A DNA stretch of 64,000 nt from Sphaerolaimus hirsutus (lineage: Eukaryota; Nematoda; Chromadorea; Monhysterida; Sphaerolaimidae): positions 10,286,704 to 10,350,703 of the forward strand of contig OZ038452.1 of assembly GCA_964036195.1 (NCBI GenBank), read 5' to 3'. Both the position numbers and the translations under genes were made by a program. Shown here in pieces: positions 2,634-37,500 of the stretch. How positions within the stretch are numbered: position 1 is the stretch's first letter; each line of letters begins with the position of its first letter. Under the pieces are notes generated by a model. That model worked only from the letters and a program-made list of their open reading frames with translations. It did not search any database and was not told where the DNA came from.

Positions 2634-2796
2634 TACCGCCAGATTTTGGTAAACTCATAAATTCGCTTTGCATGCTTTTGAGTTTGCTGGAATGAGTTAT
2701 TCGGAATCTACACCGACTGCAGTTGACAGACACGTCATTTTGGTAAACTCAAATGCGTTCACAGCCGATTTATGAGTTTACCAAAATCTGGCGGTA
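2634..2796. mobile_element. Short hairpin MITE flanked by TA
   Basis: The first and last ~28 bp are perfect or near-perfect inverted repeats (CCGCCAGATTTTGGTAAACT) flanked by TA on both sides, with a further internal copy of TTTTGGTAAACTCA. The TA flanks fit a Tc1/mariner-type insertion, but no coding part is present. Confidence 0.7.
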
Positions 2797-3073
2797 AACT
2801 AGCGTGCGCAGTGCTATTGCCTAGGTAAAATGCTAGATTCATGCAAGCAGTCCAGCATCTACCATAAATATCGACGTGTCGCAGAATAAGTGGCGGGAAA
2901 GATACAAGAAGAGAAGAGCGCCATTTTATTGGATTCGATTTTATATAAATTATCGCATGCCGTTGGTGCGATTCCAAGTTATCTTTTGCGGCACGTCCAC
3001 CGGTCATCAGACAACACGCATGCAGATTGGAGTAACACTAGCTATTTAAAGTGGCAGTGGCTTCTTAGGTGGA

Positions 3074-4133: not shown

Positions 4134-4650
4134 GCTCTATCGTGTTTTGTGTAGAACGAGCAAGAGGCCTTGCATGCAGCGAGATGTGAGAAAGTTCTAC
4201 GTGTGTGTGGATTACAAACCCGTATTCAAAACTTCTCGGTGAGAGTCGGCGAATACCTCAAACACCTAGCTTTTTAAATGAAATTGATTATCACATCCGT
4301 TATCACACACGGAAATTCGCACTAAAAATATCAGTCTATCTTCTAAAACAGAACGAACACAAACAACATGAACCATGCACGGATTCACGAAGAGTAAGAA
4401 AGAAGCCCTACAGCTACATCAACAACTAAATATAGGCCTTAGTTAAATACACACGCGCGGTGCGCAGAAAAGCGGCAGCTAAGCCATCTCCGCGAGCTAC
4501 AGCTAACGAGGTTATCACAAGCTCGAAGCACATGCACCGCCATGCGCCAATGAAGCGTGAAAGCACAGTAACTAGTCGCGCTACCGCACCGCCGCGCGTT
4601 CCCTCCGAGCGAATAGCCGTGGAATCAACCGCCCATAAGCATGGGCGGAC

Positions 4651-5939: not shown

Positions 5940-6519
5940 CAGAGTTGTTAAAATACCAGTATTTTTGGAAAGCGTAAGCGTAAGCGTAAATATACCTTCC
6001 AAATTTTGAGTATAGATACTGAACGTGTAAGTTTTTTTTAAATACATAGTAAAGCGTAAAAAAGCGTAAGTGTAATTTTTTTAAAAAGAGAGTGATCTTT
6101 GCTCAACAGACACAACAGCACAAGTTTAGACACAACACCATTGCTTTCACTTTTAAATGAATTTACAACATCGTACAACATTGTCGTCTGAATCCATCAT
6201 CAGACCCAAAATTTCCAATCTGACGCCACGATAATAATCGAGAGAGAATTTTTTATGACACACTCATATTTCGACACAATTTTTACTTCTGTCGATATTT
6301 TTAGTGAGTTATTGCGCACACGCAGTTGTTGTTTTTTGACACACGTTCTGGTCCAATTTCTTTTTTGTAGTTTTATGCTTTTTCAAAGGTAATTTGGCTG
6401 GGAAAGCGTAAAGCAAGTGTATGGGTATTTTATAAAAGCGTAAGCATAAGCGTAAATATAAATAGGTACCCATTTACCCGGGTATTTTGGGTAAGCGTAA
6501 ATACACTTTCACAACTCTG
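5940..6519. mobile_element. hAT-like MITE, family N copy 2
   Basis: Ends CAGAGTTGTTAAAATAC / CACTTTCACAACTCTG with the perfect 8-bp target duplication CATGTCAC (5932-5939, 6520-6527). Inside both ends the word AAGCGTAA is repeated many times. Confidence 0.85.
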
Positions 6520-7068
6520 CATGTCACAACGGGGGTGGGTGTTATTCTGCCAGTTATGCCCCGTGGAAGTTGACAATAGTTGTGTATTTACCAACCACCG
6601 ATCTTCGGGTCATTTCAATGCAGCCAAAGACTGGAAATGGATCGAGAAAACGTATTTTCATTAAAAAGAAGAAGTTTTTTAAAACAGAAAATTACGAAAT
6701 TTTAAACGTGAACTACGTACGCTTTTGTGTGAATCGCATCAGTCATGAACATGAACAAGTACATAAATAGAAGTAGGTAATCTCAGTTGTTGACTAGCGA
6801 GCGCGCCGGGCCCGAGGATAGACGCGTTCGTTTGCAGAGAGTGTTCACGCGCAGTGCAGTGCATTGCGTGCGGGCTGCGTAGCCTCGGCCAGAACGCACT
6901 CCATTGAATGTTGATGTATGAGCGGAAGGGGCCGCCTTCGAAGTTCCTCTGCGCATGCCCAACGCTCGCCAGACGACCAGATTACGCGGCAACGAACAGA
7001 CGAGCTTATCGAGCTGTGGGAATGAGATGCGTTCGCTTTTCCATCCACTTCAGTTTCATATTTAAATA
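6520..7068. other. No supported gene; CpG-rich patch near 6790-7010
   Basis: A GC- and CpG-rich stretch stands out from the AT-rich surroundings and gives several overlapping short ORFs in both strands, none with recognisable protein features. Confidence 0.4.
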
Positions 7069-7627
7069 CAGGGTGCGGCAATTTAGACCTGCGCTCTAGA
7101 TTTCGAATAACTTGTCACTGGGTGGTCGGATAAACGTCAGAATGTAGTTCAACATTTACAACTACATAGGAAAGGATCCCTGAAAATATGGCTGCGATAG
7201 CTCCACTCGTTTTCAAGTTATTCATTCAAACGCGTAGTCGTAACTTTACCACCACCCCGTGATAGGTTTCAAACGGGATCCACTTTTCGGGACCCGGATC
7301 GGAATTGGGATTGTTTTTTCAGTTTTTTTTTATCTTTTTTCCGCAGTGGCATGCCAAAATGCGTGCGCGCGCGCCACTAATCCGCTTTACCGATAAGGAA
7401 ATCGACAGACGACGCTTGCGTAATTGGTTGTAAAGCAAGGTGGTAGTAAAGCGACAATTTTTGGTGTTTGCATCAATAATTTGAGAACGAGTGGAGCTAT
7501 CGCAGCCATATTTTCAGTGATTATTTCCTATTTTGTTGTCAATGTTGAACTAAAATTTGACGTTAATCCGACCACCCAGTGACAAGTTATTCGAAATCTA
7601 GAGCGCAGGTCTAAATGCCGCACCCTG
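7069..7627. mobile_element. Mariner-like non-autonomous element with long TIRs
   Basis: TA-flanked ends CAGGGTGCGGCAATTTAG / CTAAATGCCGCACCCTG continue as inverted repeats well over 100 bp inward, through the words for AATATGGCTGCGATAGCTCC. TA duplication and CAGGGTG ends fit the Tc1/mariner superfamily. No transposase. Confidence 0.8.
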
Positions 7628-7629
7628 TA

Positions 7630-10496
7630 CATAGCACTGACTATAGGTAGGTAGGTAGGTTTGACGACGTTGCTGAATGAATTAAAACACTAACCCCTGA
7701 GGAGTAACTAGGTACCTAGGTAGGTATAAGCTTTTTTCATAAGCAACGACCGTTGAAATTTTATCTAAAGTTTCCTCAACTAAATATTCAAATTGACTTC
7801 ATCAGTATTTCACTTAACTTAAGGCCATCTAGAACGGCATTTCTACCTGGGACGAGTTCTAAAGACGGTAATTCTGGTCACTAACCAATTAGAGCACATT
7901 GATATTTATGTATTTATTATGTGGGCACATATTTACACATTGCACTGCGTGTTGCGATGTAAAAGTGCAAAAAACAACCATGATGCATTGAGCCGACACG
8001 ATTCGATAAAAGTAGAATTTTCAGCGCTATTTTGTGTTGGAACCTTTCGCAAGAGATGCCAGGTGTAGTACTTGATTTAACAAACATGTAAATAGTAGAT
8101 TCAATCAACTACTACACGGGCTAGCCCTGCACATTCTTTTCTTATGCATTTTGAAAATCTTGAAAACTCGTTTTCAGATCGCTTCACTAGACACTAACAA
8201 GCAATACAATGCGTGACTTGTAATGCGTGATAGATAGATTGACTGCATTATGACACCATAAAACATAAAATATAACGTAACATAATAAAATGTTAGGTAT
8301 TATACCAACGCTCAGATAATTGGTCGAGCGTCATATGTAATTACACTCGTTTTCCAAGCGAATGCTAGCAGGCGTATTCTCATGGGCACAGTAAAAAGGC
8401 CACACTCTGGTTTCACATTACCGCGGAAATTACCGCCCAACCACGGTAAGGCTGAAAAGTCCATCAAAACGAAATAACCACCATTCGAAAGTGCACAATT
8501 TCCATTCAAACAGCATCCAAATCGCGTGAAGTCTTCAAATGTTAAAACTGCATCGTCACGCGCTTGAAATGATTGATGCATGAAGTAGGGCATCGTTATC
8601 ATGCGTGAAATGAAGTGCGCTGCACCAGCGATTCTACTGGCAGTGCAACCGGCGGTGTAACGGTTTCACATAGGGCGGAGTCGGGATCGCATAGCATTTT
8701 GTGGAATGAGTTGATAACAACATGTTTGGAAATTTTCTCGGAATAATAATTGCCCCTTGACAAAATCCGCCCATCAAAAAAGTCTGACAGAAAAACAATT
8801 CCTAAAGGGAATTATTCAACCAAATACAGTATTTGTACCTACCGAGTGCAGTGGAATATTGTTTGTTGTATTGCAAGGGTCGGTCGTATTTCACTAGGTA
8901 AATTTGGGTGTTGTAGTCATATGCGTATACCTCGGGTAAGACAATTTACTACCTGTTTGTGCCTATAAAAAAAAATCGAAATATGTTACCTTACAGGCGC
9001 TGGCACTAGAGCCATGGCCCATTTCTCATACCCGGACATGGAAACCATACGCCCCAACGCAACTCAAAAACGAATTGAAACCCTCTGGAGGGTTGCAAAT
9101 GCATGTGTTCGAAGTGTGAATGCTTCCACGTGCAATTTCGTTAGGGCAGATATGTAAGCCGAAAACACGCTCGAAGGAGCAAGTAACGAAAGCATAGAAA
9201 AGAGAACCACGAACATATCCTCAAACAGTAAACTTGCGAAGAAACTCGCGAATGGGTTGCCTACCATCCAGTGTCCACTTGGTTTTTAAAGCTTTCCATT
9301 GTCGGCGGCAATCGGGCGAGCTATGGAAACAAAAAGGCCACATGCACTCGAAGGCTGTCACAAGCAATATGCATAAAACGGACACTAAAGCCGCACAATG
9401 GCAGTAGGCACGCTGGGAGCCATTCTGCCGTAAGGACTTTGTCGGAGGCTGGAAATTATGGTTGGGCGGACGTTAGGGCCAGCGATTTTATCTATTTTGT
9501 CATACTCGGCGGATAATTTTAGACTCAAATAGTGCGCGAATCACGAGACAGTTGAATATTGTGTGGTATTATGAATAAGCAAGCAGCCATCATGTATACA
9601 ACGTTTGAGGAAACCGGGCGACGAATCGATTGGCAAAAAACGTGGGCTTTTGTATATTATTCAAGCTGTTGGCAAGCTCTTATCGCCCAATCATGAATAC
9701 AATCGTCAGAATTATGAGGAGAAAGTAAACAAGTCGATTGGCACCTCGCCCCGGGGTTCACCTAGCCGTTTACAGTTTTCAACTCGAATGTATCCAAAAA
9801 TGTAAATTTACAAAAAAGGAAATGTTTGAACAAAATGCAGCATTTGTTCCGTCAATTTTCTCTGTACAATTCTAATGCTAGACCGCTGCTATGCTATTTT
9901 TGGCGTTAGTTAACTGGACGGACTTTTCACTATTTACAATTCTTTGTAAAGTAACGGGTTAGAAGAAACGCGCTTGCGCACGTCGTCCTAGAAGTGCGCT
10001 GTTTCAAATACATTACGAAATGTTGGCACAGAGCCAAAAATTGTTGATAGAATATTTTCTCGTTATAAACTTAGACTTGAATGGAATCAATCATGAACCG
10101 AAACGAATGAGTGCATTCGAATTCAAGACATCCGTCATCGTACTAAATGGAATAAAATTGTGTGGTGTCCATCGACTTTACCTCAAATCCGTTCTCAAAA
10201 TAGCTTAGACAAGTTCTTCACAGGCCGCTGTCCCCACCATCTGGAGGTGCTTCGCGGTCCCGCTGCGCGATCGCTTGCCCATGGTCGAAGAAAGAATGAG
10301 CTAAGTTGATTGTTGTCCATTGTTGTTGTTGCGTTTTATTTACAACATACGGAAGATTATGAATGCGCACCAATTTGGTTTATACGGAAACGAGTGTTTG
10401 GAGAGCGCAACGTGAAAATTTGGATGTGAGCGCGTATTGATACGCAAACATTTATGGGATTAGATCTGATTTGAACGTGTCTTTTGTTGCGTCAAA
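7630..10496. other. Long stretch with no supported gene
   Basis: Includes a short GTAG repeat near 7646-7662 and many short ORFs. A 96-codon minus-strand ORF at 8312-8602 has a fairly protein-like composition but no recognisable domain or splice context and is not called. Confidence 0.4.
8738..8832. repeat. Degraded GAATAATTCCCC-type element
   Basis: Short inverted words GGAATAATAATTGCCCC and GGGAATTATTCAACCAAATACAGTA match the ends of the 3074-4133 subfamily with most of the interior lost. Confidence 0.5.
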
Positions 10497-12328: not shown

Positions 12329-15300
12329 TAGGGCTCGAAACTCGATTTTTTTCAAACTCGAGTTCGAGTCACAACCCCAAAATTTTTCCGGTCAAGTCGG
12401 CGAGTCAAGTCAGTGAAAAGTCGAGTCGAGTCAGGCAAAAATCTCGAGTCTCGAGTCGAGTCATATGCGTTACTTTCTGCTATGACCTTTGCAGAAACCC
12501 GTGCTGAGTATACAAGAGTTTACAAATTAGGGAGTTTACAAGTTAGGGGGTGTTGGATTTGAGTTTTTTTAGCGTGCTGAGTTTACAGGAGTTTTCAAAT
12601 TATGGAGTTTACAGTTTATGGAATGATTGACTTGAGTTTTCTTAGGGTGCTGAATTTATGAGAGTTTACAGATTAGGAGTGATTAAGGGTGCTGAGTTTA
12701 CATGCATTTACAGATTAGGGGGTGTTTGATTTCAGTATATTTGGGGTGCTCAGTTTACATGAGTTTCCAAATTATGGAGTTTAAAGATAAGGGTGTTGTT
12801 TGATTTGAGTTTATTTACGGTGCTGAATTTACATGAGTATTCAAATTATGGAGTTTACAGATATTTGAATGATTAATTTGAGTTTACTTAGGGTGCTGAA
12901 CTTAGAGGAGTTTACAGATTATGGGTTTAACTTGAGTTTATCTAGGGTGCTGGTGTAACATGGCTGTTCAAATCCTGCTGATGAGTGATGGCAATTGTAT
13001 CATGGTACTGGGATGCAAAGAAGTGGCAACAGCTTAGTGTGACAAATTTTTCTATGTGGGACTTTGTATTATTGATTTATGTTATAAATGTCTATTTGTG
13101 TGTATGAATTTTTGGAGATATCCAAAACACGACTGTAGGTCTGCGAGAATCCTGCTATTTAAACATATATGTTGTGAATCAATTGCATGCAAAGTATGCC
13201 TAATGTAAAAGATTGGGAGGCACAATCACACACTTCATTTTACCCAATTTGTGTGTGTTTTTACACACAATGCAGTCACTATTTATTAGCACAATTTGTG
13301 CGTTATTTCTCAAGTGCGCGCGGCGCACTCGCGCCAACCTACATCTTAAAACTGCACGTGAAGTGAATTTCCGTAGGTCCAGTTATGGACTTTGACCATA
13401 TTGGATTTTCGCGGCTGGTGTGTGCGGAAAATTAGGTCCGCGGCCTAAATTATGTACATAATTCACGCGTAGACATATTTATGATTCATATCCGTGATAA
13501 GATAAAGAAACTGAGATCAGCAGAAATAGTGGTGTTTTCAAATTATGAAGTTAAAAAATTAGGGGGGTGTTTGATTCAAGTTTATTTAGGGTGCTGAGTT
13601 TACTTGAGCTTACATATTAGTGGTTTGACTTGAGTTTATTTGGGGTGCTGAATTTACATGAGTTTACAGATTATGGGTTTAACATGAGTTTATTTGGGGT
13701 GCTGAGTTTAGAAGAGTTTACAAATTAGGGAGTTTACAGATTAGGGGGTGTTTGATTTGAGTTTTTAGGGTGCTGAGTTTACGTGATTTGATATATTAGG
13801 GGTTTGACTTGACTTTATTTAGGGTGCTGAGTTTATGGGAGTTTTCAGATTATTGGTTTAACTTGAGTTGATTTGGGGTGCTGATTTTACAAGAGCTTAC
13901 AAATTAGGGAGTTTACAGATTATGGGGTGTTTGATTTGAGTTTTTTTAGGGTGCTGAGTTTATGTGATTTGACATATTAGGGGTTTGCCTTGAGTTTATT
14001 TAGGGTGCTGACTTTACATGGGTTTACAGATTATGGGTTTAACATGAGTTTATTTGGGGTGCTGAGTTTACAAGAGTTTACAAATTAGGGAGTTTACAGA
14101 TTAGGGGGTGTTTGATTTGCGTTTTTTTAGGGTGCTGAGTTTATGTGAATTGACATATTAGGGGTTTGACTTGAGTTTATTTAGGTTGCTGAGTTTATGG
14201 GAGTTTTCAGATTATGGGTTTTACTTGAGTTGATTTTGGGTGCTGTGTTCACATGAGTTTACAAATTAGGGAGTCGACAGATTAGGGAATGATTGACTTG
14301 AGTTTATTTAGGGTGCTGAATTTACATGAGTTTACAAATTAGGGGGTTTACAGATTAGGGGGTGTTTGATTTGAGTTTTTGAGGGTGCTGTGTTTATGTG
14401 ATTTGACATATTAGGGGTTTGACTTGAGTTTATTTAGGGTGCTGAATTTACAGGAGTTTACAGATTATGGGTTTAACTTGAGTTTATTTAGGGTGCTGAG
14501 TTTACAAGAGTGTACAAATTAGGGAGTTTACTGATTGGGGGTGTTTGACTTGAGTTTTTTTAGGGTGCTGAGTTTACAGGAGTTTTCAAATTACAGAGTT
14601 TACATATTATGGAATGATCAACTTGAGTTTATTTAGGGTTCTGATATTACAGGAGTTTACAGATTATGGGTTTAACTTGAGTTTATTTAGGGTGCTGAGT
14701 TTACATGAGTTTACAAATTATGGAGTTTACTGATTAGGGGGTAATTGTCCTGAGTTTATTCAGGGTGCTGAGTTTACATGATTTAACATATAAGGGGTTT
14801 GACTTGAGTTTATTTAGGGTGCTGAATTTACATGAGTTTACAGATTATGGGTTTTACTTGACTTTATTTGGGGTGCTGAGTATACAAGAGTTTACAAATT
14901 AGGGAGTTTACAAGTTAGGGGGTGTTTGATTTGAGTTTTTTAGGGTGCTGAGTTTACAGGAGTTTTCAAATAATGGAGTTTACAGATTATGGAATGATTG
15001 ACTTGAGTTTACTTAGGGTGCTGAATTTATGAGAGTTTACAGATTATGGGTTTACTTGAGTTTATCTAGGGTGCTTAGTTTACATGAGTTTACAAATTAG
15101 GGAGTTTACAGATTAGGGAGTGATTAAGGGTGCTGAGTTTACATGCATTTACAGATCAGGGAGTGTTTGATTTGAGTATATTTGGGGTGCACAGTTTACA
15201 TGAGTTTCCAAATTATGGAGTTTAAAGATTAGGGGGTGTTTAATTTGAGTTAATTTACGGCACTGAATTTACATGAGTTTTCAAATTATGGAGTTTACAG

Positions 15301-16129
15301 ATTTTTGAATGATTAATTTAAGTTTACTTAGGGTGCTGGACTTAGAGGAGTTTACAGATTATGGGTTTAACTTGAGTTTATCTAGGGTGCTGGTGTAACA
15401 TGGCTGTTCAAATCCTGCTGATGAGTGATGGCAATTGTATCATGGTACTGGGATGCAAAGAAGTGGCAACAGCTTAGTATGCCAAATTTTTCTATGTGGG
15501 ACTTTGTATTTTTGATTTATGTTATAAATGTCTATTAGTGTGTATGAATTTTTTTGAGATATCCAAAACCCGACCGTAGGTTGGTGAGAATCCTGCTAGT
15601 TGTTTATATTCACAAAAGACGGGGGGAACTTATTTACCGTATGAATATGATCAGCTACAACCAGGGATTTATCCAGTATTGTTGAATGGGAGTGTCTGTT
15701 CAGCCTCTGTAATGGTTTATGAATGGTGGGGGCTCGTTTACCACACACAAATTTTACCTACACAAATGGATTAATTCCATTACACTGACCCCATCATAGG
15801 CATCACAAAATGGCACTATTGGCAATACAAAACTTGAGTTTTAACATCATTCAATGCATATGGCAAGCCAATCAATGATATATCATTCATGTGGTGTGGA
15901 AATGCGTGCTTGAACATTTTGAAAAATATGTCAAAAAATTCATATGAAAATTGATTTTTTGAGATAAGTCTATGGGAACCCCGACTCGAAATTTGGCAAA
16001 ATTTCGAGTTGAGTCAGGCAAAAACCTCGAGTCTCGAATCAGGGCAATATTTTTCAGGTCGGGCAAGTCGAGTCTATACCCAATTTTACCCTCGAGTCAG
16101 GAGTCGAGTCTAGTCGAGTTCGAGCCCTA
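12329..16129. mobile_element. hAT-like non-autonomous element F (3.8 kb), TCGAGTC ends
   Basis: Ends TAGGGCTCGAAACTCGA / GTTCGAGCCCTA with repeated TCGAGTC words inside each end. The perfect 8-bp target duplication CTATAGAC lies at 12321-12328 and 16130-16137. The interior is mostly a long degenerate tandem array and has no transposase. Confidence 0.9.
12490..15410. repeat. Degenerate tandem array inside F (GGGTGCTGAGTTTACA unit)
   Basis: Units built from TTTAGGGTGCTGAGTTTACA, TGAGTTTACAAATTAGGG and GTGTTTGATTTGAGTTT recur dozens of times at roughly 60-110 bp spacing, interrupted around 13156-13535 by unrelated sequence. A ~205-bp segment beginning TGTAACATGGCTGTTCAAAT occurs near 12953 and again near 15392, bracketing the main block as direct copies. 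TTAGGG words are part of the unit; this is not a telomeric repeat. Confidence 0.8.
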
Positions 16130-16569: not shown

Positions 16570-19500
16570 CTGAAATTTCAAAGTGTGTAATACTAAGTAC
16601 AATATTAATTACCTAAATATCAATATATTATGATGCTATTTATTGTATATTTTTTTACCCATTTGGTTCTCAATGTCAGAATGGTAAATGGAGAAATCAA
16701 AATTAGATTGACTTAAGTAGGTAATGTACTTAGGAATTAATTCTAAACAGTTTTTTAAATTGCTTTGTACTTACTAGGGTAATCTTGAATTTTGACCTTC
16801 TGGGGGGGGGTTGGTTAGATAAATAGCAAATCGCTCCTCTGGAGTAGATAACTATACAAAATTTTTAAGGGTGGTTTGTTTCCTGTTTACTGAGCCCTAC
16901 TTTTCTGTATAACCTGTTCTATATAGATGTATTGCATATCACTGTATGCAATCTCCAGCACAATCACATCATCCCTCTGCATGTAATTCTGTGCTCTGTT
17001 TGGTTCGGGCAGCTCATTTGTGTATTTCCACCATTTGAATTGCCTGTTGTACTGATCCCATGTTCGTATACCCATTTCAGACAATGTTCTATTCAGGTCT
17101 GGCTTAAACACTTGCGTTTCATCATAAGGACACCCAACTGAAAAGCGATTTAAAAAAATGTAAACTGGCAAAGTGCAGTTTATGTGGTGACAGTTTTGTG
17201 AACTTCCTTACCATTGCCATTCTTTTCATGTTCAAAGTATTGAATCCAGCAACTGATATTGTGTTCCTCTTTAACTACAATTTGTGACAAATTCACCTCT
17301 CTTGCATGAGGAATGACCAGTGGCGTAGCCAGGGGGGCGGGGGGGGGGGGCGGCTGCCCCCCTCCCTTCCGGGGTGAGACTTGAGAAATGTTTGGAAACG
17401 TGTTCTGGTGCAATGATTTTGAGGTCAATTTACAAAAATTTGGCGCGCATTTTGTAGTCAAATTACAGCCATTTTCCCTTTACAGGTCGCGATAACCTCA
17501 ACTTACGTGAAAATCAGGGCTGTATCCAGGGGGGGGGGGGCGGGGTGGGGCTGCAGCCCCCCCTCCTGGTTCGAGACCAGAAAGTGACCAGAAAATGTGA
17601 CTTTTTCACGTCGCGCATTCTTCACCAGACAAGATTTATTATCATCAGATTTGCTCCATGTGACCGCAAATCATTATAGATACACTCAATATTGTGCTTT
17701 TTGCTATTTTGTATGTATATTTACATACATATACAGTGTTTCATGGTGCTGGCACCAACGCCAATGGTGCCATGGCGTGGCGTATACTAATGACGCCAGC
17801 GCCATGGCACCCTTCCGCCATTATGTAGCTAAACTTTTAGGGGGGGGGGGGCTGAGCCCCCCCCTCGCCGGCCTCAGTAAACAAGCAGCCCCCCACTCAA
17901 AAATCCTGGCTATGCCACTGGGAATGACATAGTCTCTTTGTTCTCCAGACTGTAAATTCTCTTTCTTCTTTCTTTTTTGTCTCTCCAAGTAAAACAACTG
18001 ACTTCCATTGCTCGTTTGATTTGATACTGCTGGGCTATCAAGGTAAATAAACTCAATTTCATGACTTTTTTCATGTGATGATGCTGGTCCATCAAAATTA
18101 GATTCCTGATTTTCATGACTCGTTTCATGTGATTCTGCCGATTTGTTCATAGTAAAAATCTGATTATCATGGCTCTTTTCAAGTGATGCTTCTTGTCCAT
18201 CAGAATTAGATTCCTGATTTTCATGACTCATTTCGTGTGAGACTGCTGATTTCTTCATCATAAAAATCTGATTATCATGGCTTTTTTCAAGTGATGCTTC
18301 TTGTCCATCAGAATTAGATTCCTGATCTTCATGACTCATTTCTTGTGATTCTGCCGATTTCTTCATGATAAAATTCTGATTATCATGGCTTTTTTCAAGT
18401 GATGCTTCTTGTCCATCAGAATTAGATTCCTGATTTTCATGACTCATTTCATATGATTCTCCTGGTTTCTTCATAAAAAAATTCAAATTATCATCGCTCT
18501 TTTCATGTGATGCTTCTTGTCCATCAGAATTAAATTCATGATTTTCATGACTCATTTTGTGTGATTCTGCCGATTTCTTCAAAATAAAAATCTGATTATC
18601 ATGTCTCTTTTCAAGTGATGCTTCTTGTCCATCAGAATTAGATTCCTGATCTTCATGACTCATTTCTTGTGCTTCTGCCAATTTCTTCAACATTAAATCG
18701 TGATAAAATAACCGATCTCCGTGGCTCTGTTGTGATGCTGATAGTCCATTCAATTCCAACCATTTTTCATATCCAAGGCTCTTTTCATGTGATGCTTCTT
18801 GTCCATCAGAATTAGATTCCTGATTTTCATGACTCATTTCATATGATTCTCCTGGTTTCATCATAAAATCACCATTCTGAATAAAACGACCCTGACTATC
18901 AAATCTGGTATTATGATATGCTTCTTGTCCATCAGAATTAAATTCATGACTTTCATGGCTCATTTCATTTGATGCTGATAGTCCATGTAATTCCAACCAT
19001 TCTTCATATGTAAGGCTCTTTTCATTTGATGCTGATAGTCCATTCAATTCCAACCATTTTTCATATCCAAGGCTCTTTTCATGTGATGCTTCTTGTCCAT
19101 CAGAATTAGATTCCTGATTTTCATGACTCATTTCATATGATTCTCCTGGTTTCATCATAAAATCACCATTCTGAATAAAACGACCCTGACTATCAAATCT
19201 GGTATTATGATATGCTTCTTGTCCATCAGAATTAAATTCATGACTTTCATGGCTCATTTCATTTGATGCTGATAGTCCATGTAATTCCAACCATTCTTCA
19301 TATGTAAGGCTCTTTTCATTTGATGCTGATAGTCCATTCGATTCCAACCATTCATCAGATTCGTTATCTTCGGCGATTGCTTCGTTTGATGGCACCGGGT
19401 TGTGCATAATATTATAATGTGTTGGCTGCAAGTCCTTTTCTGTGAATCCCAGCTGGTACAAAGTTTTGTGCATCATATCTTGGTCCAGTCTCTCTGACTG

Positions 19501-25500: not shown

Positions 25501-28500
25501 AATTAGGGTTTTCAAATCTAATGGTGAAAGTAAGCTCCAATACAATGTGCAAATCTTCAGACTCCCAGGATAACTGGGATGTGTCCCAGATTTATATTAT
25601 AGTTTTCAGTTACTGAGACAGAGTGGCATAGTGAATATGTGACAAAAATAAGTGACAGGAATTGCTGTGAGTGCTAAGAATGGTGGCAGTTATGGCAGCA
25701 TTTATGCTCAGGGTTTGTTGGAGTAAAAGTTGCAGTAAAATGATTTCAAATTCAAGCTGAATGTACCAACCTCAGTGATGTACTTTGTGCAATCTCCCTC
25801 TCCACTTCCATCATCTGGTCCACCAATTTGACACTCTCGTATGAATTGTGAAGCCTTGAAACCAGCCTGCACATTTGGCTTATTTATTCGTACTATAGTC
25901 TCACGTAAATAAATATTAGCTAGAAATCTCCTAATCATTTCCTGACCTTCAAAAAGAATTCTTCTGCATTTTTCGGAGTCCACACTTTGAATGGCGGTGG
26001 CCTGGGAGAGCAACGCCTCCATTTACAGGGATCAAATGGCTCAACTGTCAATGAACTTTCAGTAGTTTTCTTTTGTACATTATCCTTGACTATTCTCCAA
26101 TCGTCTATACTGGAGTCACGGTCAAACACGGTTGACAATGATCTGAAACGAGAGAAGGTTGGAAAGAAGGGGAAAGCTCAAAATCCAAGTGCGCATAATC
26201 CAATCAGGCGTAATCCAATCAATTTTTGCGCATAATCCAAGCACTATCGGTGTAAAGTTACATGCATTTTTGGTTCCGCCAAGTGCAGCATAATCCATAC
26301 AGAAATGAGGCATAATTCAAGCAAGCACTCTTCTTATGTATGAATGTATTTAAGTCAGTACAGTGCACAATACATGTACTGTATAGTTGACATAGTACAA
26401 CGAAAAAAAAAAAAAAAAGAAAAAAGTCGAGAAAACGACCTCCCATCAGAGGGGTGAGTTTGAGGCTTGAAGTTGAGAATAAGAGGGCAGGGTGCATCAG
26501 ACCAGTCATTTTTTAAGACCGCTGATGACTCGGGCCAGATTGATTAATAACTTGGACATAAATGGCCTGTTCCCAAGGTGTAAATACACCGCTCATAAGA
26601 AGCGGGAACAGTGCCAAGAAAATGTCCGCCATTTATTGGCTGGGTATATTTCAAATATGCACGTACGCATTTGCTACCATATCTCGGGCAAACAAGTACG
26701 AGTGTGACATATACCCTAAGAGTTATGGTCTATCTGAAAAAGATATGACATATGAAGTGAGAATTGAAAAAATAGCGAACATATATATTAATAAAGTTCG
26801 GAATGCGTTCGGAAATGCTAATATTATAAATTTCCAGTACGCGGATTGTTGTTACCAATCAATACTAATAACGAACAGAACGATTTTAAAATCTAGTCCG
26901 TATTACTTTCCGATGAATTGCGTATGTATTCGAGATTATTCGAGAAAAGCAAAATATCGGCGAACGTTGAAGCTGAGCGAGACGTTCGGTAAGGCGGATT
27001 TGAGCGATATAATTGGTGAGTGGGCGGTGAAACTGAATGTTTCACATTACGCGGGTCTCTCGTTCGTGCGGGTGCACATACAAAGCCGGTATTTACCGTG
27101 CTTTGTGTCCCAAACGAAAACGAGAGTTTTTTTTGGCTTTACATTTCGATTGAAAGGTTTTTTCGCGATAGAGGTGTTTATATCGCGAAATTTTCCGATA
27201 GTTCAATTCAATTGGTTGAGGAGAACATCTATCAAACGAAATGCGACAAAGTTTTTAACAGTTATCTCGATATCGAAGAAAAAGTATATGTTGGAATTTC
27301 GAAATTCCTGGAAAAGATTTTGGGCATTTGAAGCCAATATTCTAAGCCATTCAGTGCCTCTATCTTGTAGGATTATATGGCGCTCGTTGAGGAGGTGGAA
27401 AACGAAAACGACGGTTTCGTTGACACTTCACAAGATTCCCAAGACCCTGCGGGCACAAAATCGCAGCCGTTGCGACGTTCGGGTCGCAAATCGGGCAGCT
27501 TTCGGGTGCTGGCGAGCAAGGGTGGTGCGGTGCAAAGCGGAGGTCCGAAAAAGCGGAACGCTACCACGGTTAGTGGGACAGTGGGCTAGGCATCTGCGTA
27601 CTGGTGAGAGGCACTCGAGTGTCAGTTCCAGTTCTCAGATGTCATTGAGTTTTGCGATGTTTTCTTCATTCATTAGAAATTCATGGTTACTGTCTTATGA
27701 GTTTTATCCGCCTCGCAGTAGTGGGCGTCATTTGTGGAGCTGGGTATATCGCCAAATGCCGGAAATTAATTATTTATGTACAAAATACCGTCAAAAACAT
27801 TGGCATTTACAATGTGTCCATTCAAACATGCTATACGTATTTAGAGTGAATAAATCTAATACGCATTACTGCGAGGTGGGTATGACTGGGCGCACACCTT
27901 TGATTGACATGTCCTACATGCGGTTTGTTGTGATGCAGGCGCTCTCGCATAAAACAAAGCGTGAAAAGATTTTCACGGCAAACCGCTCGGAAATGGACGT
28001 GGAATTTGAGGGGTTGACAACGTCCCCGATGGCAACCGCGGAAGACACGGTCGCTATGAAGACAAAGTTCGGCACACTGACGCCGCGCGAACGCGTCAGC
28101 TTCGTCAATAACCTGGTGGACACCAGGTCGGGCAAGTACGTAGAGTTGGCGGAGCAGATGAACACGATGGAGACGCTGCTGTCCAAAGGTCCCATTAATG
28201 TTGGTTCCGGGGCATGTTTCTATGATAACAGCTTTAATTTAAGCCTGATTAATAGAAATCTAGTTCATATTGTTGGATATCCTATCGGGTCATATTGTAT
28301 ACATCATCTCAAATTACTGCGAAGAAGGAAAAGGGAATGTTTATTTACAGTAGTTTTCTACTACGTCATAACAATACCATGTGCTGTAATGTTTAATACA
28401 CATTCCGCTTTCTCGCAGGCCGAATCCCTGGGCGCTTACACATGCCAAACCAAGGAGATCCTTGCAAAATTGAAGCATGCCATTTATTTAAGTGGTCAGA

Positions 28501-31500
28501 TCGACTTGGGGCAGGCAATGATTGCCGAGACGATGCTGCTCGACTCAGCGCGTGCAGTCAGAATTATTTGACGAGTTAAAAACGCAGCGCGTGATGATCG
28601 AGCGAATGCAAATGAGTTTGCAAGCCAAGGGGGTGGATCTGACGGCCGATGTGAACAACATATTTATGTTGAGTAGCACCGAACCGCAAGATCCGATGTC
28701 CTTCTTTTATCGGACTGACTTCCTGGCTTTTGGCATCCGTTGGAAGTGTCTAATGTGCGCGCTAATTTGGCACAAAGGTGAGACGTTGGGTGTGCCGGCT
28801 CTCAAAGAAGAAGCCATAAGGTGCAACATTTCCTATACGGAATATGATCCCTTGGCACCCCTAGTCATGGCCAAGTGCTGGGCAGAGTGGCGCAACGAGC
28901 AGTGGAAATTGTATTACGACGATACCGACGACAATCAAGCCGTCTCATGGTATGATAAGACAATTTCCGGTGATTCTGCTCGTATGCGAAGTACACCGGC
29001 CTACCGCTCCCTAATAGCAGTTTTGCAAGTGTGCGTAAAGGGTAACAAGGCTTTCGCCATGTACCTGAAACTGACAGGGGGGCGGCAAATTCAAAATGCG
29101 GCACGCGCGCATCGTTACCTCGGCAACGGCTTTAATAAAACTGCGTGGGATGGCGTGACAAAATCGAGCGACGGCCGGAACATGAATATGTACAGCCTCG
29201 CGTTAGAGGAAGTTCGCGCCTCCCCGGAGTTTACCTCTCTGACTTTCACGTCTGAAGAGGAGCAGGCGTACAATGCCGAGTTTGTGGCCCACGAGGCAGA
29301 CAAAATGTGGACTGTGGGCCCCGGGATATCGGAGCACAAAGAAAGGGCGAAATCCATCCACCAAGGTAGGTTGGGTGGGTTGCATAGTTTCAGTGTGAAA
29401 CGTGGAAAATGGGAGAATACCATCCTTAGTATTCAAAATTACCTTGAATTCGGTATAAAGGAATCTGAGGTAGAAGACGGTGAAATAGTGGAATTTCAAG
29501 TGAAGGATATCGTTATTAAACGCTATAGTAAATGTCCGGAACCAATACGCCACACACATTCCTCTCTCTCGATGGTAACTGTAAACTCCCAATCCCTTTC
29601 AGTGAACCAGTTCAATCAGACGATGAACAAGCGCAAAAAGGGCGGCAAGTCGTCGTCTAGCTCCGCGGGCGCCGCGGTCATTGCGGCGGCGGCGGCTGAT
29701 GCCCCTGAGGAGCTCGGTGAGGCCGTAGATGATGACGGCTCCGTGGACATGGAAAATGAGGTGATTCAGCGTTTTCATCTGGACCATGAAGACAATCCAT
29801 TGCGGTTGTGGGCTGGTAAATTCGCGGAAAAGAGCGGAAGTTTGACCCCTAAAATGGTGGACATACACTCGCCGGCGGCTATCAACGCTGCCAAAATGGC
29901 TGTCACTACTGACGCTATGGGCGGTACCACAAATTGGGACGATAAAGTATTTGTCGCCGATTGTGGATGGTTCACCATTAGGGATCTCTTGCGCTCGTTC
30001 GATCATGACCCCTCTGAGTGGCAGCCCTACCTGCAAAAGGATGTAAAAAGACCGATGACCTGGCAAGCGCCTGTATGGTCACTGTCCCCCCTCCCATCGA
30101 ACTTCTTTTCTGACAAGTTCTCGCGCGATGACAAATACGGTCAGGACCATACTGGTCTGCGCGAGGGTTGGGTGGGCATTTCGGTCGATTTTATCCCTGT
30201 GCGAGTTTGGCTAGTAGGGGACAGCACCGCAAGGTCGGTGAGGGTGTCGCTGCTGGACTTTTTGCGAAAAAGTATTGTCCATACTGAGGCGGCGCACCTT
30301 CCCCATACGGTGTCTGTGTCGAACGTTGCCAATTGCTACTCGGGTTGTAGAATGGCGACAATGAAAGGGGCGTGTGCGCTGATCGATTTTAGCGAAGTGA
30401 AAGTCGTGGTGTGGAAGTCTGTTCTGGACTACATAGACACGGTCTTCTGCACTGTTAAATCGGGCGAATCGGATGGCATTTTCCAGTTCGTGAGGAATGT
30501 TTACGTGACTTTATTACAACTGCGTTTCATCCTCTTTGAGCAGGGCTTGCCGCACATTCCGATAGTGTGTTGCGTGACCCAGCCGTTTTTTCCGGCACAA
30601 GAGGGGATCGCACACAACGCGTACGCCGAAGCTATAATTTGGAGGTTGGGCAGAGACATCGAATCAGCGTTGTCTCGGGTGTGCGCCAATATACCTGGCG
30701 TAACCATCTGCCAACCACTGAATTATATATTGCGAAACAAAAAATCCGCAATAATTCCGCACTTGATGGGGGTGGATACCATGCGCCTATATGAAGGGAT
30801 TGTAGGCACAGACGGCATCCATCTGAGCAAATACGGGGAGTCGTTCTTTGGGCGCTTATTGGCACGGGAGTGCGCGTTCGCGCTGGAAGGTTACAGCGCG
30901 CCAACGCTAGCCAGGTGGGCGAAAGTAGATAACGTGCTAGATATAATAAATAGCCTAGATCACCTGTCATGGATGCATGTTTGTATTAGATCTTATTGTA
31001 CCCTAACTCCTACAGGTGGCGCCAGATGTGCGGCTCAACCGATCCCGATCTCTGCAAAGAGGGGCAAAGGGCGGTGGCGGACCTGTTCACCAAGGCGAAG
31101 GAGGTTTGTTTCTAAGCTACCATGTGTTAACACTGGCCGCTGCGTAAAAGCATCTGACTCGAATATTAATAAATCGGTGCAGGAAGTTCGCATAAGCGTG
31201 GCCGCGGTGCTCGTGGAGTCCCGTACGGGCGCGGAAATGGCGGTGCGGCGCAAATTCGTGGCGCCGGGGGTAGCCGAAACAGTTCGGTGGGCAGCGGATC
31301 CGAGCGCAGAGGAAATCTGCAGCAGAATAACCGGTCCGGGTGAGTTAGTGCCGAGTGAAATTCCGTCTATTCTGCTATTCGTCATAATTTTACTGTGCTC
31401 GTTTACATTGGTTACGTATATTCTAGTAATACAATGCATACCTCAGGGGTTCCGCATCAGCCGGCGCCGGCAACAATCGCGGAGCGAACGGCGGCCGTGG

Positions 31501-34500
31501 TCGCGGCGGCCGAGGTGGGGGCCCACCAGGAGTTCCGCCTGGCGGCAGCGGCAAAGGCTTGTGGTATGTCTACCGCGAATAAAATGGGAGCAAGCAGCTC
31601 GGTTGCAAAGTGATCTGTTTTTTAGGATGTTTCAGCGTGCGCGCCTCTGTTTCAGAAGGCGCGACATCCTGAATTATTTTTGCATTGGCTGCGCCACCAT
31701 GTCACTTTTTTGCTTAGTTAGCAATAAGTTTATATATGGCGTAACTTCACAAGGCGTGGTTACTGGATCATTTACGGCAGTTCCTAAAATGTGCCTTAGG
31801 ATATTTGTGGATAACATGTTAATATTGGCACTACTTTGTGAAGAGACACCTTTTTGCGTTCTGTTCTTATGTCCGAAATACATGGCGATATGTGCATCAG
31901 TCGGTAGAAGACAGTTAATAATATCACTAACTGTTGGGCTGAAGGGTAAAACCATTTTGAACCTGCAACTTGACAGGTTGGCCATGTATTTCAGACAGAT
32001 ATTATCTGTTTTATCATATTACAAGACCGGTAATTTAATTACAACTATAAAATGGTTTCGTAATACATGCCATATTATCATCGCGATACGGGATCTCACG
32101 TGTAATTTAGTGCTTTACCAACCAACGGCATTTTCATTTATGTCATTATATAATTACCTCCGGGTGACGTGCATTTTTTTATGTTGCATGATAAGGCCAG
32201 TAAATATACATCATGCTGGTCTAACTGGGAGAAATGTGGCACAATGTGTTACGGGCATATCACGTAATGTAAATATGCCAAAAGCTGATACTCTACAAAC
32301 AGGTACTGATATTCGGCACCAGAGTGTAGGGTTGGCCTTAAACACAGCCACCGACGAGACAGCGAATGTCCGGTGCGCCTCTGATCTCAAAGTTTTTTAC
32401 CAAAATGTGAACTCAATAAGGCATAAGCATGCGCAGCTTCATAATATTGGGAATATGGACTATGACTGCATTGCTCTTTGTGAAACCAATGCTGTACATA
32501 AAGTCCATCTGCCGGATATACAGGGTTATACGCTAAATGCAATCATGAAGCCGATTGATGGCAATGGCGGTATAGCCGTGTATACCAAAGTGCACTTAGA
32601 ATGTTCCGTTTTGGGAGGTGAATATTGGGAAGACTGTAAAAATGTTTTATGGCTCACTCTGCGATGCCAAAAAACATCAACTTTCATTATGCTTGCAGTA
32701 GTATATCTTTTCGATTCAGGAAAAGTATCCAGGAATCGTACGTATTTAGAGCAAAATGAATGCATCCTATCCCACCTATCGTCTCAGATATCTGAAAATA
32801 TAAAACAGGGCAGTCCTACCTTACTTATAGGGGATTTTAACGGTCACATTGGGAACACTTATCCTGGGCTGGAGCAAAATAATGCTACTGTAAATGACAC
32901 AGGGAGACTAGTGAACTCCTTTATTACGTTGAATGATCTCTATGTAGGCACATCTGTCACTGATATATGGTGGTCTTATGAAGCAGGAGCAATACGCTCA
33001 CTATTAGATATAGCTTTATTCGACTCAAATGCGGAGTGGGTAAGTGAACTCTCGCATCATAGCCCGACCAGTGATAGGTCAATTGCTTCAGATCACTGCT
33101 CGTTGCACTTAAAACTGTCTACGCTACCCTTACATCGTGTACAGCCGACTGGCGATAAATATTCACATGAGTGGGTGGTGAAGGGGGAAGATGTCATCGA
33201 GCCATTCTCAAACTGGCTTGAAGAGTCTTTGTCATCGTTAAGTGATCAAGAATGTACATATGAAACTGTTTTGAGTCGCTTACAAGATGTTGCCTCTAGA
33301 CGTTATAGATTAAAAGCTAGTACAATTCAGCCAACATGCGTGGCGGTAAAAATTCGGCGCATGAAGGCAGAAATACAGAAATTACGGCGGCAACTACATT
33401 TGGATGCCATCGTATATTCTGAGTACAAAGCTAGGGTGTCGGTTCTACGGGACTGTATACGTTCCTGTGAACAAGAGTATGAGAGGGAAATCAAGCGCAA
33501 ACGACTTGACATTGAACTACAATCAAGTAGTACTAAGACGGATTTGTACAGCCTGGCTCGGCGATATAGAGAGGCTGGCATTTTATATCCGATGTTAAGA
33601 TCGAATGTAGGCTTGGCAGATACAAAAGAAAGAATATGTAGTGTACTGCGGGGATTCTGGGATAAAGTTCAAACGGCAAATCCGATGAGCTCAGACCCAG
33701 ATAACTGCAAAACTACACTCTCTGGTATCATCTCAGGTAGCCTTGCGGTCAGTCTCGATGAGGGAATTAGCCCGGTAGAAATAAAACAAGCTATTAAGAG
33801 ACTGAAACTAGGAAAATCTCCAGGTACAACGGGAGTCTATCACGAAATGTTACGTGGTAGTGGTACTCATTTAGTGAGAGTGCTTAAAATACTTTTCAAT
33901 GGTTGGTTTGATGGAAATCCTATACCCCATGCGGCTAAAACCTGTAAGCTGTCTTTACTGCATAAGAAAGGCTCTAAATCGTGTATTGATAATTATCGAT
34001 CTATTGGCCTGCAATGTAACCTATTAAAGCTATACTGCTCTGTATTGAATAATAGGCTACTATCAGCATTCGAGACCGTGGATGGATTCGGAAGTATGCA
34101 GGGGGGGTTTAGGAAAAAACGCCGCACCACGGATAATCATGTTATCATTCAGGGCTGCGTAAATGGTAATGCTACCGTTTCCGCATGTTTCGTAGATGCG
34201 GTTAAGGCTTTTGATAGGGTACCACGTACCAAGCTATGGCCTAAACTGCTGGATTATGGATATCCGGCAAAGTTTGTGAAATCGATATCGAGCACGTATG
34301 ACGATCTGCGGTGCGTGATACAATACGGTTCTACGTACAGCCCTGAGTATATGTATCCTCTTGGCGTACGTCAGGGGTGTTGCCTATCTCCTAGTCTGTA
34401 CGTTCTCTATTTAGCAGATCTACGTACTGATCTAGAAAGTCTGAATATAGGAGCACAACTGGGGCCTTTAAAAGTACCAGCAGTGTTCTTTGTCGATGAT

Positions 34501-37500
34501 ATTGCTCTGCTAGCGAATAGTGCACCCGATCTCCAGATTATAATGGATAAATTTACGGAATGGTCATGGAGATGGGGGGTAGCAATACATCCGGATAAAA
34601 GTAAGATTCTGCACTTCCGTCGTAAATCCAATCCATCATGCCATTGGGCATTAGGAAAGGATAAGAACGGTAGGCTCCAATACATATCTGAGGTGGACGA
34701 GATAAAGTATTTAGGTATTACAATAACGTCAGAAAGGGATATGTTTCGTAGACAGCGTCAGCTGCTGCTCCAACGAGCGCAGACGGCTGCCATAATGGTG
34801 GGAGAACTAGGAAAAATGTCATTACGTCCATTTTGGGCAGTGAACAGATTGTGGACACTATACGCAATGACAAAAGTATTCTACGGTGTAGAAATCTTTG
34901 GCTTGCCAAAGCAAACTTTGGCAAAACTGGTTGGCATACAAATGTCTGTTTACAGAAAGGTATGTCACTCCCCCCTGCACCTTTCAAACAGGTGCCTAGC
35001 TATTGATGGAGATGTTACAACAATGAAGGCTTGGTATACTAGCATAGTTGTTGGTCACTGTCGATACTTGGAGAGTGATAAAGTAAGCTCTACCACTAAG
35101 GTAGCATTTAAACTCTGGGGTAAGACAAAGTCGAACCAACCAAGGCGTTTTAGTCCCACTGGGCGGACTTCTGTACTACTTAATGATGCAAATATTGATC
35201 CTATGTTGGGCTTGAAGAGTATTAAACTGCTAGCTAAACAACAGGCCTGGATGGATGCATCGTTGGGCTCAGTAAGTCGGTCTCGATCACGGGTAGAACG
35301 TTATCTGGGCACATGCCCAGCCCCTTTAAATACCTATGAAATATATATTGATGATCTACCGTGGGTTTTTACTCGACACGGTTTGTTGCAAAACGCGCAA
35401 CAATTCAGATTAAGTAGGACGGGGAAAAAACAGTGGACCTCATGCAAATTATGTAAAAAATATGGCCATGATTTCTGGCCAACCCTACAACATTATTTGT
35501 ACGGATGCCAAGATATGAGTATTATATACTGGCGCGAGAAACTGCTAAGGGAATTATGCTCTGAGTGCTGTGAAGAAAAATGTGCACAAGAGATTTGCTC
35601 TGTGGATCCGATATGCCGCTTTGCACAGATATCACGAGCTATCTGTGCAAAATCGCGAAAATTAATATCGACCAACATCACAGCATTAGATAAGTATATT
35701 ACTAGCCTCTGATCATGATCAAGTAGGTATTTATATACGTATCAAACTGTTCCCTGTTTTTAGATAGATCTTTGATCATAGTAATGTGTATATTGATATG
35801 GCGAAAAGTAGGGTAAAATAATATTATAACCTACACCGTGAGGTAGAGGACACTGGCATCGCTTATATTCGGACAAAGCATGGGATTTTAACTTCCACAT
35901 GCAGCCCGACAGTTTATTCAGCGATACATACACTCTAGACTCACTAGGCCAAAATCGAATACTACATATACCTACCAATCGTTGTACTGTCGTTTAAGAG
36001 TAAAACCAGGGCCCTGGTATCTTAGATTCTCTCTCTCTCGTTTATATTTTGTTATAGATCGCTCGCCTTAGTGGTAAATTTATGTTACTAGTATGTTGAA
36101 CTTGTAGGGCTTAGGATATCTTTGTTCTATATTCGTGGTATCACCTACTATATAGTTCTGTCTATTTGCGTGCAGTGGTATCATGTTAGTCTGCCTTAAA
36201 TATCGATTGTATTCGAATAATTATTACCGGTATTTTAAAAAACAAATGGTTCTCAACTTTTGCTCTTTGTTAAACATGAAATTGTATTTTGATTTCAATA
36301 TTGCTCTCGACTATTTTTCTTTTGTATGTTGTTAGTACATGCCCGTGACTTGTAGAGCCAGTAGCGGTACGAGTGTTAAATAAATAAATAAATAAATAAA
36401 TGTGCATGCAGCATTATTAGGGGTGTGCAAAGTTCACATGAAGGTCAATGGCATTCATTACAGTGTGCATTACAGTTGTGTGAAGGTGCTTATTCTTTTT
36501 AGAATGTATACATATAGTATTGAAATAGATATATAAATATAATATTAATTGTTATGTAGGAAATATGCAATGCAATAATATGTAATAAACGTATGCACCA
36601 CATGCTATGCTTTTTCCTAAGGAAACACTCCATTATGATGTCATCATTAATAAAATTGTTTCAAAAAATGTTTCTGAAAAAATGTTCACCCCCTGTACAT
36701 TGGTTGATTGCTTTCTGATTAGGGTTGGAAAAAAGCTCCCAGATATGACCTAGTGTCAACATATATAGCCACAAATAGGGGTAGCCAATGGATGTACCAT
36801 GTTTTTTGTGTCATTTACTTGCATTTGACTCTAGAGGCCCAAGCCGAGTAAACTTTATTTGATTTGATTTGATATATAGGTATATCAGACAGTGGCAATA
36901 CTCTGTGATGTTAAATATGACCATATAATTGCTGTGGAGCCATGGGATAGCATTATAAATAAGTGGTGATTTGTGTCAAAAATATCCATTTTTTGTCGAC
37001 ATGTTTGTATATCGGCTTATAGTAGAATGTTCGTGACTTCGAGTGAAGTTTGGCACGGAATAGTGATCAAACAAGGTTTTAAAAGGAGGTTGTTACTTTG
37101 GGAGTGATGTTACACACTGGAGGTACATGGAAGCACATTACCTCAATATTTTATACTACAGCAACATATGACTGCTTATTCACCCATGGTAGCACATAGA
37201 AATGGATGCTTTGATAATGAAAATGCCACAAAACCAATGACAACAACCACCAATGTCAATTTGTGTGTGAAATTGCACGTTTGCATGCAAATATTTTGCA
37301 AAATGCCTAGTGCCTCGTACTAAAAGTTTCAGTCAATGTTTAAAAAAAAAACATTTCGGACATCATGTTTTTTTTAAGTATAAAAAAACGTTTTAAAAAA
37401 CCCATCAGCCAACCCTATTTCTGATTGATGTTGATTCCTCTTATTTGTGCTGACATTGGCTATTAGTTACACAAAAAAGGAAATAAACCCAATATAATAC

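Follow-up and report, generated by a model that had tools for sequence, protein, structure and literature searches.

How can an element that is copied into the genome from RNA carry introns in its coding region? The question is raised by a long interspersed nuclear element (LINE) in a 64,000-nucleotide stretch of the genome of the nematode Sphaerolaimus hirsutus (assembly GCA_964036195.1, contig OZ038452.1, positions 10,286,704 to 10,350,703); this whole stretch is called the window, and positions are counted from its first letter. LINEs are thought to depend on one unspliced RNA, and splicing damages L1 RNA. Our analysis leads us to the view that this LINE probably uses intron retention to obtain two products, with spliced RNA giving the protein of the first open reading frame (ORF1p) and unspliced RNA serving both as messenger for a polyprotein and as template. 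In this scheme the unspliced full-length RNA would be translated from a start codon in exon 1, in one giant frame, through the introns, an exitron, the spacer between the two open reading frames (ORFs) and ORF2. The product would be a polyprotein of ~3,030 amino acids made up of ORF1 parts, intron-coded linkers and the endonuclease-reverse transcriptase, and the same RNA would be the template copied into the genome. Translation of the spliced RNA would start in exon 2 and yield an ORF1p of ~1,020 amino acids (~1,100 with the exitron) that has an RGG tail and stops before ORF2. We infer that both RNAs exist and are translated.

Judged from its sequence, the element is a mobile LINE unit with many genomic copies. 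Its limits and its 3' half are as follows.

26411..36398, + strand: full-length element, ~9.99 kb, ends approximate; limits common to copies L009, L010 and L015.
32395..35712, + strand: ORF2, conserved, with an APE endonuclease at ~32437-33096 and a reverse transcriptase at ~33961-34725.
35713..36398, + strand: 3' untranslated region and (TAAA)n tail, the tail being seen in the sequence.

The endonuclease and reverse transcriptase named in a preliminary description of the window were recovered over the Pfam cut-offs in one ORF2 protein (PF03372 and PF00078), and the TAAA repeat of that description does stand at the element end. ORF2 matched L1 ORF2p and R2 proteins among PDB sequences. The copies are dispersed, some are truncated at the 5' end (L011 and L013 align from mid-element only) and the tail is a TAAA simple repeat, as in a LINE. 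As possible target-site duplications, six copies showed only 7-8 nt repeats or none, and none is clear in the window copy. The Pfam scan that placed the two domains over cut-off revealed no integrase, and no search aimed at long terminal repeats (LTRs) was made. A search of the genome (348 Mb, 762 contigs) gave at least 43 ORF2 matches, with 41 of 1,278 candidates scored, and 84 matches were listed for a single ORF1 exon used as query. The copies fall into families, with ORF2 identities to the window copy of 99% in family A (L010), 75% in family B (L019) and 55% in family C; family D (L043) is 40% identical in an ORF1 exon. The element 5' ends of families A and C (window 26411-26450 and C copies) have an A-rich start followed by a hairpin-like GTCG...CGAC. 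At locus L020 two ORF2 matches follow each other in tandem, at 2707-4449 and 5951-9139; it would seem that one copy has been joined to a second.

An intron-rich upstream coding region would also be expected if a host multi-exon esterase gene happened to adjoin an unrelated LINE. We find such a host gene hardly credible, given the 84 ORF1-exon matches and the element ends common to copies. Moreover, after 14 short fragments of the same families had been left out, 24 of the 31 ORF1 matches in families A-C have an ORF2 match downstream on the same strand, in 20 cases at a distance of 2.92-3.12 kb, and the upstream region is therefore not a host gene beside a LINE. The preliminary description had named this arrangement, or ORF2 copies devoid of the upstream region, as what would speak against its proposal, and the 24 linked matches argue against such a host gene. 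The remaining 7 matches are without ORF2 among the matches listed, the ORF2 search having scored part of the candidates.

The same description held that ORF1 becomes one protein only once segments with GT-AG ends are removed, and that its Gly/Arg-rich tail ends at 31582. Both statements were confirmed; joining the segments originally proposed gives, in the sister copy L010, a continuous RGG-rich frame of 1,034 amino acids, and the tail ends with a TAA at 31580-31582. To this annotation we add the putative introns 26644-27370, 27569-27938 and 28200-28418 and an ORF1 start at 27377. The predicted organization upstream of ORF2 is then as follows.

26622..26643, + strand: end of exon 1, with the giant-frame start codon at 26622-26624; families A and B.
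26644..27370, + strand: intron 0, 727 nt; free of giant-frame stops and opening with a hydrophobic, signal-peptide-like stretch.
27371..27568, + strand: exon 2, with the ORF1 ATG at 27377-27379; constrained in the spliced frame, merely stop-free in the giant frame.
27569..27938, + strand: intron 1, 370 nt; in families A-D and F its giant-frame phase is 2 and its length 1 mod 3.
27939..28199, + strand: exon 2b of ORF1.
28200..28418, + strand: intron 2, 219 nt.
28419..29365, + strand: exon 3 of ORF1, site of the frameshift in the window copy.
29366..29602, + strand: intron 3 or exitron, 237 nt; splice signals conserved, protein-coding if retained.
29603..30914, + strand: exon 3b of ORF1, with a candidate SGNH-esterase domain recognized by motifs only (GDS 30217-30225, DGIHL 30811-30825).
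30915..31015, + strand: intron 4, 101 nt, 2 mod 3; alternative donor at 30925.
31016..31103, + strand: exon 4 of ORF1, in a frame other than the giant one.
31104..31196, + strand: intron 5; acceptor 31196 keeps the RGG frame, and a second AG acceptor at 31182 gives exon 5 in the giant frame.
31197..31339, + strand: exon 5 of ORF1; RGG frame favoured by family B substitutions.
31340..31446, + strand: intron 6; acceptor 31446 goes with the RGG exon 5, alternative 31460; membrane-helix-like stretch in the giant frame.
31447..31582, + strand: exon 6, with the RGG tail and its stop codon; Arg-rich in the giant frame.
31583..32394, + strand: ORF1-ORF2 spacer; diverged, with the giant frame open and no conserved ORF2 start codon.

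The ORF1 start codon lies directly after the intron 0 acceptor, and the exon 2 peptide in the spliced frame is MALVEEVENEND. After splicing of intron 0, the giant start would open a 13-codon upstream ORF whose TGA (27388-27390) overlaps the ORF1 start in families A and B. The candidate introns have GT-AG ends at equivalent places in other copies, a comparison that the preliminary description had suggested. Intron lengths in A, B, C and D are 370, 349, 331 and 319 nt for intron 1; 219, 228, 291 and 129 nt for intron 2; 237, 237, 225 and 213 nt for intron 3; and 101, 101, 161 and 68 nt for intron 4. Despite these length changes, introns 1-4 maintain lengths mod 3 of 1, 0, 0 and 2 and equal phases in all four families. 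Intron 1 of a family F copy (L045) is 595 nt long, again 1 mod 3 and phase 2, with 0, 16 and 15 stops by frame; a repeat in it has a spacing of 81 nt, equal to 27 codons, and is therefore an in-frame duplication. Depending on the acceptors, the spliced ORF1 measures 1,026 (A), 1,020 or 1,023 (B), 1,021 (C) or 1,009 (D) amino acids, and retention of intron 3 lengthens it by ~75-79 amino acids in A-C. The joined-exon ORF1s of A, B and C are homologous and end at equivalent RGG tails.

The same region is open in a single frame that ignores these boundaries.

26562..35712, + strand: giant polyprotein frame, 9.15 kb; conserved start codon at 26622; one frameshift in the window copy between 28522 and 28571.

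In the window copy the frame is open over 26562-28571 and, after the single frameshift, over 28522-35712, where the other two + frames hold 160 and 173 stops. It crosses every candidate intron, the differently framed ORF1 exons and the 812-nt spacer, and then enters ORF2. The earlier view of ORF2 as a separate ORF is thereby replaced by one in which it is fused in frame to all that lies upstream, introns included. Intact giant frames span, from stop to stop, 3,050 codons in L010 (A), 3,038 in L019 (B) and 3,227 in the family C copy at C1:2953202, or 3,030, 3,013 and 3,145 codons respectively when counted from the conserved start codon. The family D copy is open for 2,892 codons, up to the end of the piece retrieved, and other distant copies in the list of ORF1-exon matches have open frames of 2,893, 2,927, 2,927 and 3,013 codons. 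The majority of the remaining copies contain stops or are truncated.

Counts were made over the leader, the introns (without intron 3) and the spacer, bounded in A-C by the equivalents of acceptors 31182 and 31460. They gave 0, 202 and 194 stops by frame in 2,550 codons of A, B and C, and 0, 47 and 51 in 686 codons of D. Pooled over the four families, 3,236 such codons hold no stop in the giant frame versus 249 and 245 in the others, in families with introns that for the most part can no longer be aligned. No alternative genetic code need be assumed, since the standard code already gives an open frame, and antisense coding was ruled out as the cause of the openness, as no antisense frame is open across the element. 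A conserved start methionine for ORF2 was looked for and none was found; the reverse transcriptase would be made only as part of the fusion.

Selection distinguishes the parts of this frame. The ratio of nonsynonymous to synonymous rates (dN/dS) was determined for two family B pairs (L019 versus L023 and L019 versus L021, given in this order). Values for exons 2b, 3, 3b and ORF2 are 0.07-0.11 (exon 3, 0.11 and 0.08; ORF2, 0.10 and 0.10). Exon 2 has a dN/dS of 0.07 and 0.04 in the spliced frame, with 8 and 12 synonymous changes; for the giant frame of this exon the counts are 0 and 0 synonymous versus 9 and 13 nonsynonymous. Constraint on exon 2 is confined to the spliced frame, and the spliced ORF1 is under purifying selection. 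These results bear directly on a simpler account, in which there is no splicing and the apparent introns are fast-evolving linkers within one giant ORF. Such linkers may evolve fast, and the account would explain a frame open throughout as well as the behaviour of exon 5 in family C described below. We nevertheless consider it very unlikely, since exon 2 has synonymous changes when it is read in the spliced frame and never when it is read in the giant frame, since introns 1-4 have the same GT-AG ends, phases and lengths mod 3 throughout A-D with intron sequence left free, and since joining the exons yields homologous ORF1s of 1,026, 1,020 and 1,021 amino acids.

Within the giant frame, introns 1, 2, 4, 5 and 6 of the same pairs have dN/dS values of 0.53-1.23, the leader 0.65 and 0.80, and the spacer 0.46 and 0.50. 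Intron 3 stands at 0.20 and 0.17. The segment 29366-29602, originally described as an intron, retains its conserved splice signals, but it is called an exitron here because its protein sequence is conserved when retained. In the other introns amino acids drift almost freely; what does not vary in introns 1-4 is the phase and the length mod 3. Stops, on the other hand, are strongly avoided. When the observed substitutions were placed at random in the leader, intron and spacer segments, 23.1 and 25.1 stops were expected from the 522 and 579 substitutions of the two B pairs, versus one stop observed in each; five A and C pairs contain none versus 8.4, 8.3, 2.9, 3.5 and 6.2 expected. Selection on leader, introns and spacer is for readability more than for content.

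Alternatively, the sole benefit of readability could be protection of the unspliced RNA from nonsense-mediated decay, with the giant protein as a by-product and ORF2 made in some other way. Escape from decay would equally keep the introns and spacer open up to the end of ORF2 and would agree with intron amino acids that are near neutral. We regard it as unlikely: ORF2 is without a conserved start methionine, the spacer is under some amino acid constraint, and hydrophobic stretches recur at equivalent places. Escape by translation would in any case yield the fusion, so that this account differs from intron retention for two products only in what is selected.

That the unspliced RNA is the template agrees with the genomic copies. 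Introns are retained in all aligned 5'-complete copies. The spliced junction over introns 1-2 was crossed by 0 of 55 matches to a joined-exon query, all of which end at exon borders or inside exons, and therefore no copy of a spliced RNA was found over these introns. A family C copy, L028, lacks ~1,025 nt from intron 0 into exon 2b and was rejected as a spliced copy; it is a deletion because its breakpoints are not at splice sites. The proposal of the preliminary description that the mobile RNA is unspliced and ORF1 is made from spliced RNA gains support from the intron-keeping copies, from the lack of spliced copies among the 55 matches and from the spliced-frame constraint on exon 2.

For exons 4-6, all three frames of each exon were tested by comparing copies with one reference per family (6 comparisons in A, 7 in B and 4 in C, mutually non-independent). 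Exon 4 fits the frame set by donor 30915, with 3 synonymous and 0 nonsynonymous changes in A and, in B, proportions of synonymous (pS) and nonsynonymous (pN) differences of 0.079 and 0.022; the changes are few. The donor given earlier, 30925, also leads to a continuous path in family A, but the GT is missing there in the B copies seen (L019, L021 and L022), and 30915, with which the exon 4 substitutions agree, is the more likely site. Exon 5 in B fits the RGG frame (13 synonymous and 5 nonsynonymous changes, versus 2 and 16 in the giant frame), and its substitutions in A are uninformative. Exon 6 fits the RGG frame with 4 synonymous and 1 nonsynonymous changes in A and 6 and 3 in B. Substitutions thus back the Gly/Arg-rich frame first described for exons 5 and 6 in B and for exon 6 also in A. 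A path with acceptors 31196 and 31446 satisfies both families. The acceptor first assigned to intron 5, 31182, has a usable AG, but with donor 30915 an RGG exon 5 needs 31196; the end first assigned to intron 6, 31446, fits together with 31196, whereas acceptor 31460 requires a giant-frame reading of exon 5. That reading of exon 5, through acceptors 31182 and 31460, was dropped, as the RGG frame is the constrained one in B.

Several observations weigh against intron retention for two products. The splice sites are predicted from GT-AG ends, phase and frame; introns 5 and 6 each offer a choice of two usable acceptors, and few changes define the exon 4 frame. Exon 5 in family C fits the giant frame (8 synonymous and 1 nonsynonymous changes) and not the RGG frame (0 and 5); all four of these comparisons share the copy L024, the sole one with a stop in the RGG frame. 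Family C has no intron 0 donor where A and B have theirs, the window copy contains one frameshift, and two old B copies have one stop each in the segments tested. A 2A motif search and Pfam detected neither a 2A motif nor a protease domain that could free ORF2. Finally, all families come from one genome. Elsewhere the relatives found are distant and confined to ORF2, with seven proteins of at best 26% identity among 7,991 scored candidates, and no ORF1 relative was found among 7,997 scored candidates. The other conclusions are independent of the exon 4 frame and of the acceptors of introns 5 and 6.

What might distinguish the unspliced RNA is suggested by a structure at the start of intron 1.

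27588..27644, + strand: RNA hairpin, 19 nt inside intron 1, with covariation; candidate mark of unspliced RNA, or a splicing or export element.

The hairpin is conserved in six sequences of families A, B and C, with 21 pairs, 11 of them changed on both sides, and 92% of cells paired; the structure was obtained with RNAalifold from the same alignment as the pair count, which favours the hairpin. On four of five measures the hairpin was equalled by none of 500 shuffles and on the fifth by 66 of them, and slid controls scored far lower. Folding of single sequences is modestly better than that of shuffles (z -1.7 to -2.8). Family D folds alike at this place, the hairpin was not seen in intron 1 of the family F copy, and no Rfam match was obtained within the element up to an E-value of 0.5. 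The hairpin lies just downstream of the donor and would therefore be present only in RNA that keeps intron 1. It may mark the unspliced RNA and could control retention, export or the choice of template.

The giant frame also suggests membrane stretches. In A-D it has one membrane-like stretch in intron 6 and two in the spacer, and its N-terminus, hydrophobic in B, C and D, is less strongly so in A. Against composition-matched stop-free sequence, hydrophobicity over the four families gave p=0.00014 for the N-terminus, p=0.0003 for intron 6 and p=0.002 for the spacer, values that are optimistic in view of the relatedness of A and B and of the testing of several segments. Introns 1, 2 and 4 were not significant, and the family A N-terminus alone was weak (p=0.098). 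A tentative and rather doubtful extension is that intron retention switches between a soluble RNA-binding ORF1p and a membrane-spanning ORF1-endonuclease-reverse transcriptase polyprotein. The intron and spacer frames would contribute a signal sequence at the N-terminus, one membrane helix from intron 6 and a further two from the spacer, the RGG exon read in the giant frame would become an Arg-rich cytosolic loop, and a Psi-like hairpin in intron 1 would pick the unspliced template.

The esterase assigned to ORF1 in the preliminary description was not confirmed. The motifs GDST and DGIHL in exon 3b are invariant in the four families, but no residue could be assigned as the block III Asn, and there was no Pfam match over the cut-off and no PDB match, also by profile. 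A single-sequence structure model had a predicted local distance difference test score (pLDDT) of 31. The esterase is a candidate identified by motifs.

Elsewhere in the window, a large irregular tandem array with units of ~54, 73, 127 and 181 nt occupies 12500-15392, in a stretch whose GC skew is strong (0.46 for the interval starting at 13001 and 0.43 for that starting at 14001). At 18059-19352 there are tandem repeats with units of 108 and 294 nt; both lengths are divisible by 3, and the repeats possibly belong to a repeat-coding gene. In the same assembly, COX1 on contig C762 (L044) reads TGA as Trp, ATA as Met and AGA as Ser, in keeping with the invertebrate mitochondrial code and with a host among the invertebrate animals.

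Among the open-access papers listed, we found no LINE with this splicing strategy. In retroviruses the unspliced RNA is both the genome and the messenger of the reverse transcriptase polyprotein, and the packaging signal lies downstream of a splice donor, as the hairpin does here. Unlike in retroviruses, splicing here would give a Gag-like product and not Env, in an element with a LINE-type endonuclease-reverse transcriptase and apparently no LTRs. If the hairpin does mark genomic RNA, it would represent a packaging-like signal in a LINE. Arkhipova and colleagues reportedly described intron-containing Penelope-like elements in 2003; these are said to keep introns in their genomic copies, as does the present element, and to belong to a different reverse transcriptase class, and they are not known to have introns that stay open in a single frame.

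Among LINEs, CR1, L2 and RTEX are described as having esterase-type (type IV) ORF1s (PMC3905857, PMC4120745), and in the main text of these two papers the terms 'intron' and 'splic-' occur 0 times. The element shares with them SGNH-like motifs, of a candidate esterase, in the protein upstream of the APE-reverse transcriptase, and differs in its frame fused to ORF2 and in the RGG tail of ORF1. The proposed expression strategy is closest to that of Ty1/copia elements, in the portions of the reports considered here: BARE of barley has an unspliced RNA with Gag-Pol in one frame and a spliced, short Gag-only RNA (PMC3735527), and EVD of Arabidopsis likewise has an unspliced Gag-Pol RNA and a spliced, short Gag-only RNA, with one intron described (PMC8892269). 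As in BARE and EVD, spliced RNA would lead to a Gag-like product and unspliced RNA to a one-frame reverse transcriptase fusion, a likeness drawn here from sequence architecture and selection. The element is an animal LINE with a probably copia-like expression strategy and is not a member of copia; unlike those LTR elements, it has an APE-reverse transcriptase and a TAAA tail. A LINE lineage seems to have taken splicing as an expression switch, for which ~800 codons of intron, leader and spacer would be kept stop-free. In place of the one intron of EVD, its introns run through the leader and ORF1, all stop-free across families and with some ORF1 exons dual-frame. They appear to be selected for being readable and hardly for what they encode, a parallel in a LINE to Gag and Gag-Pol.

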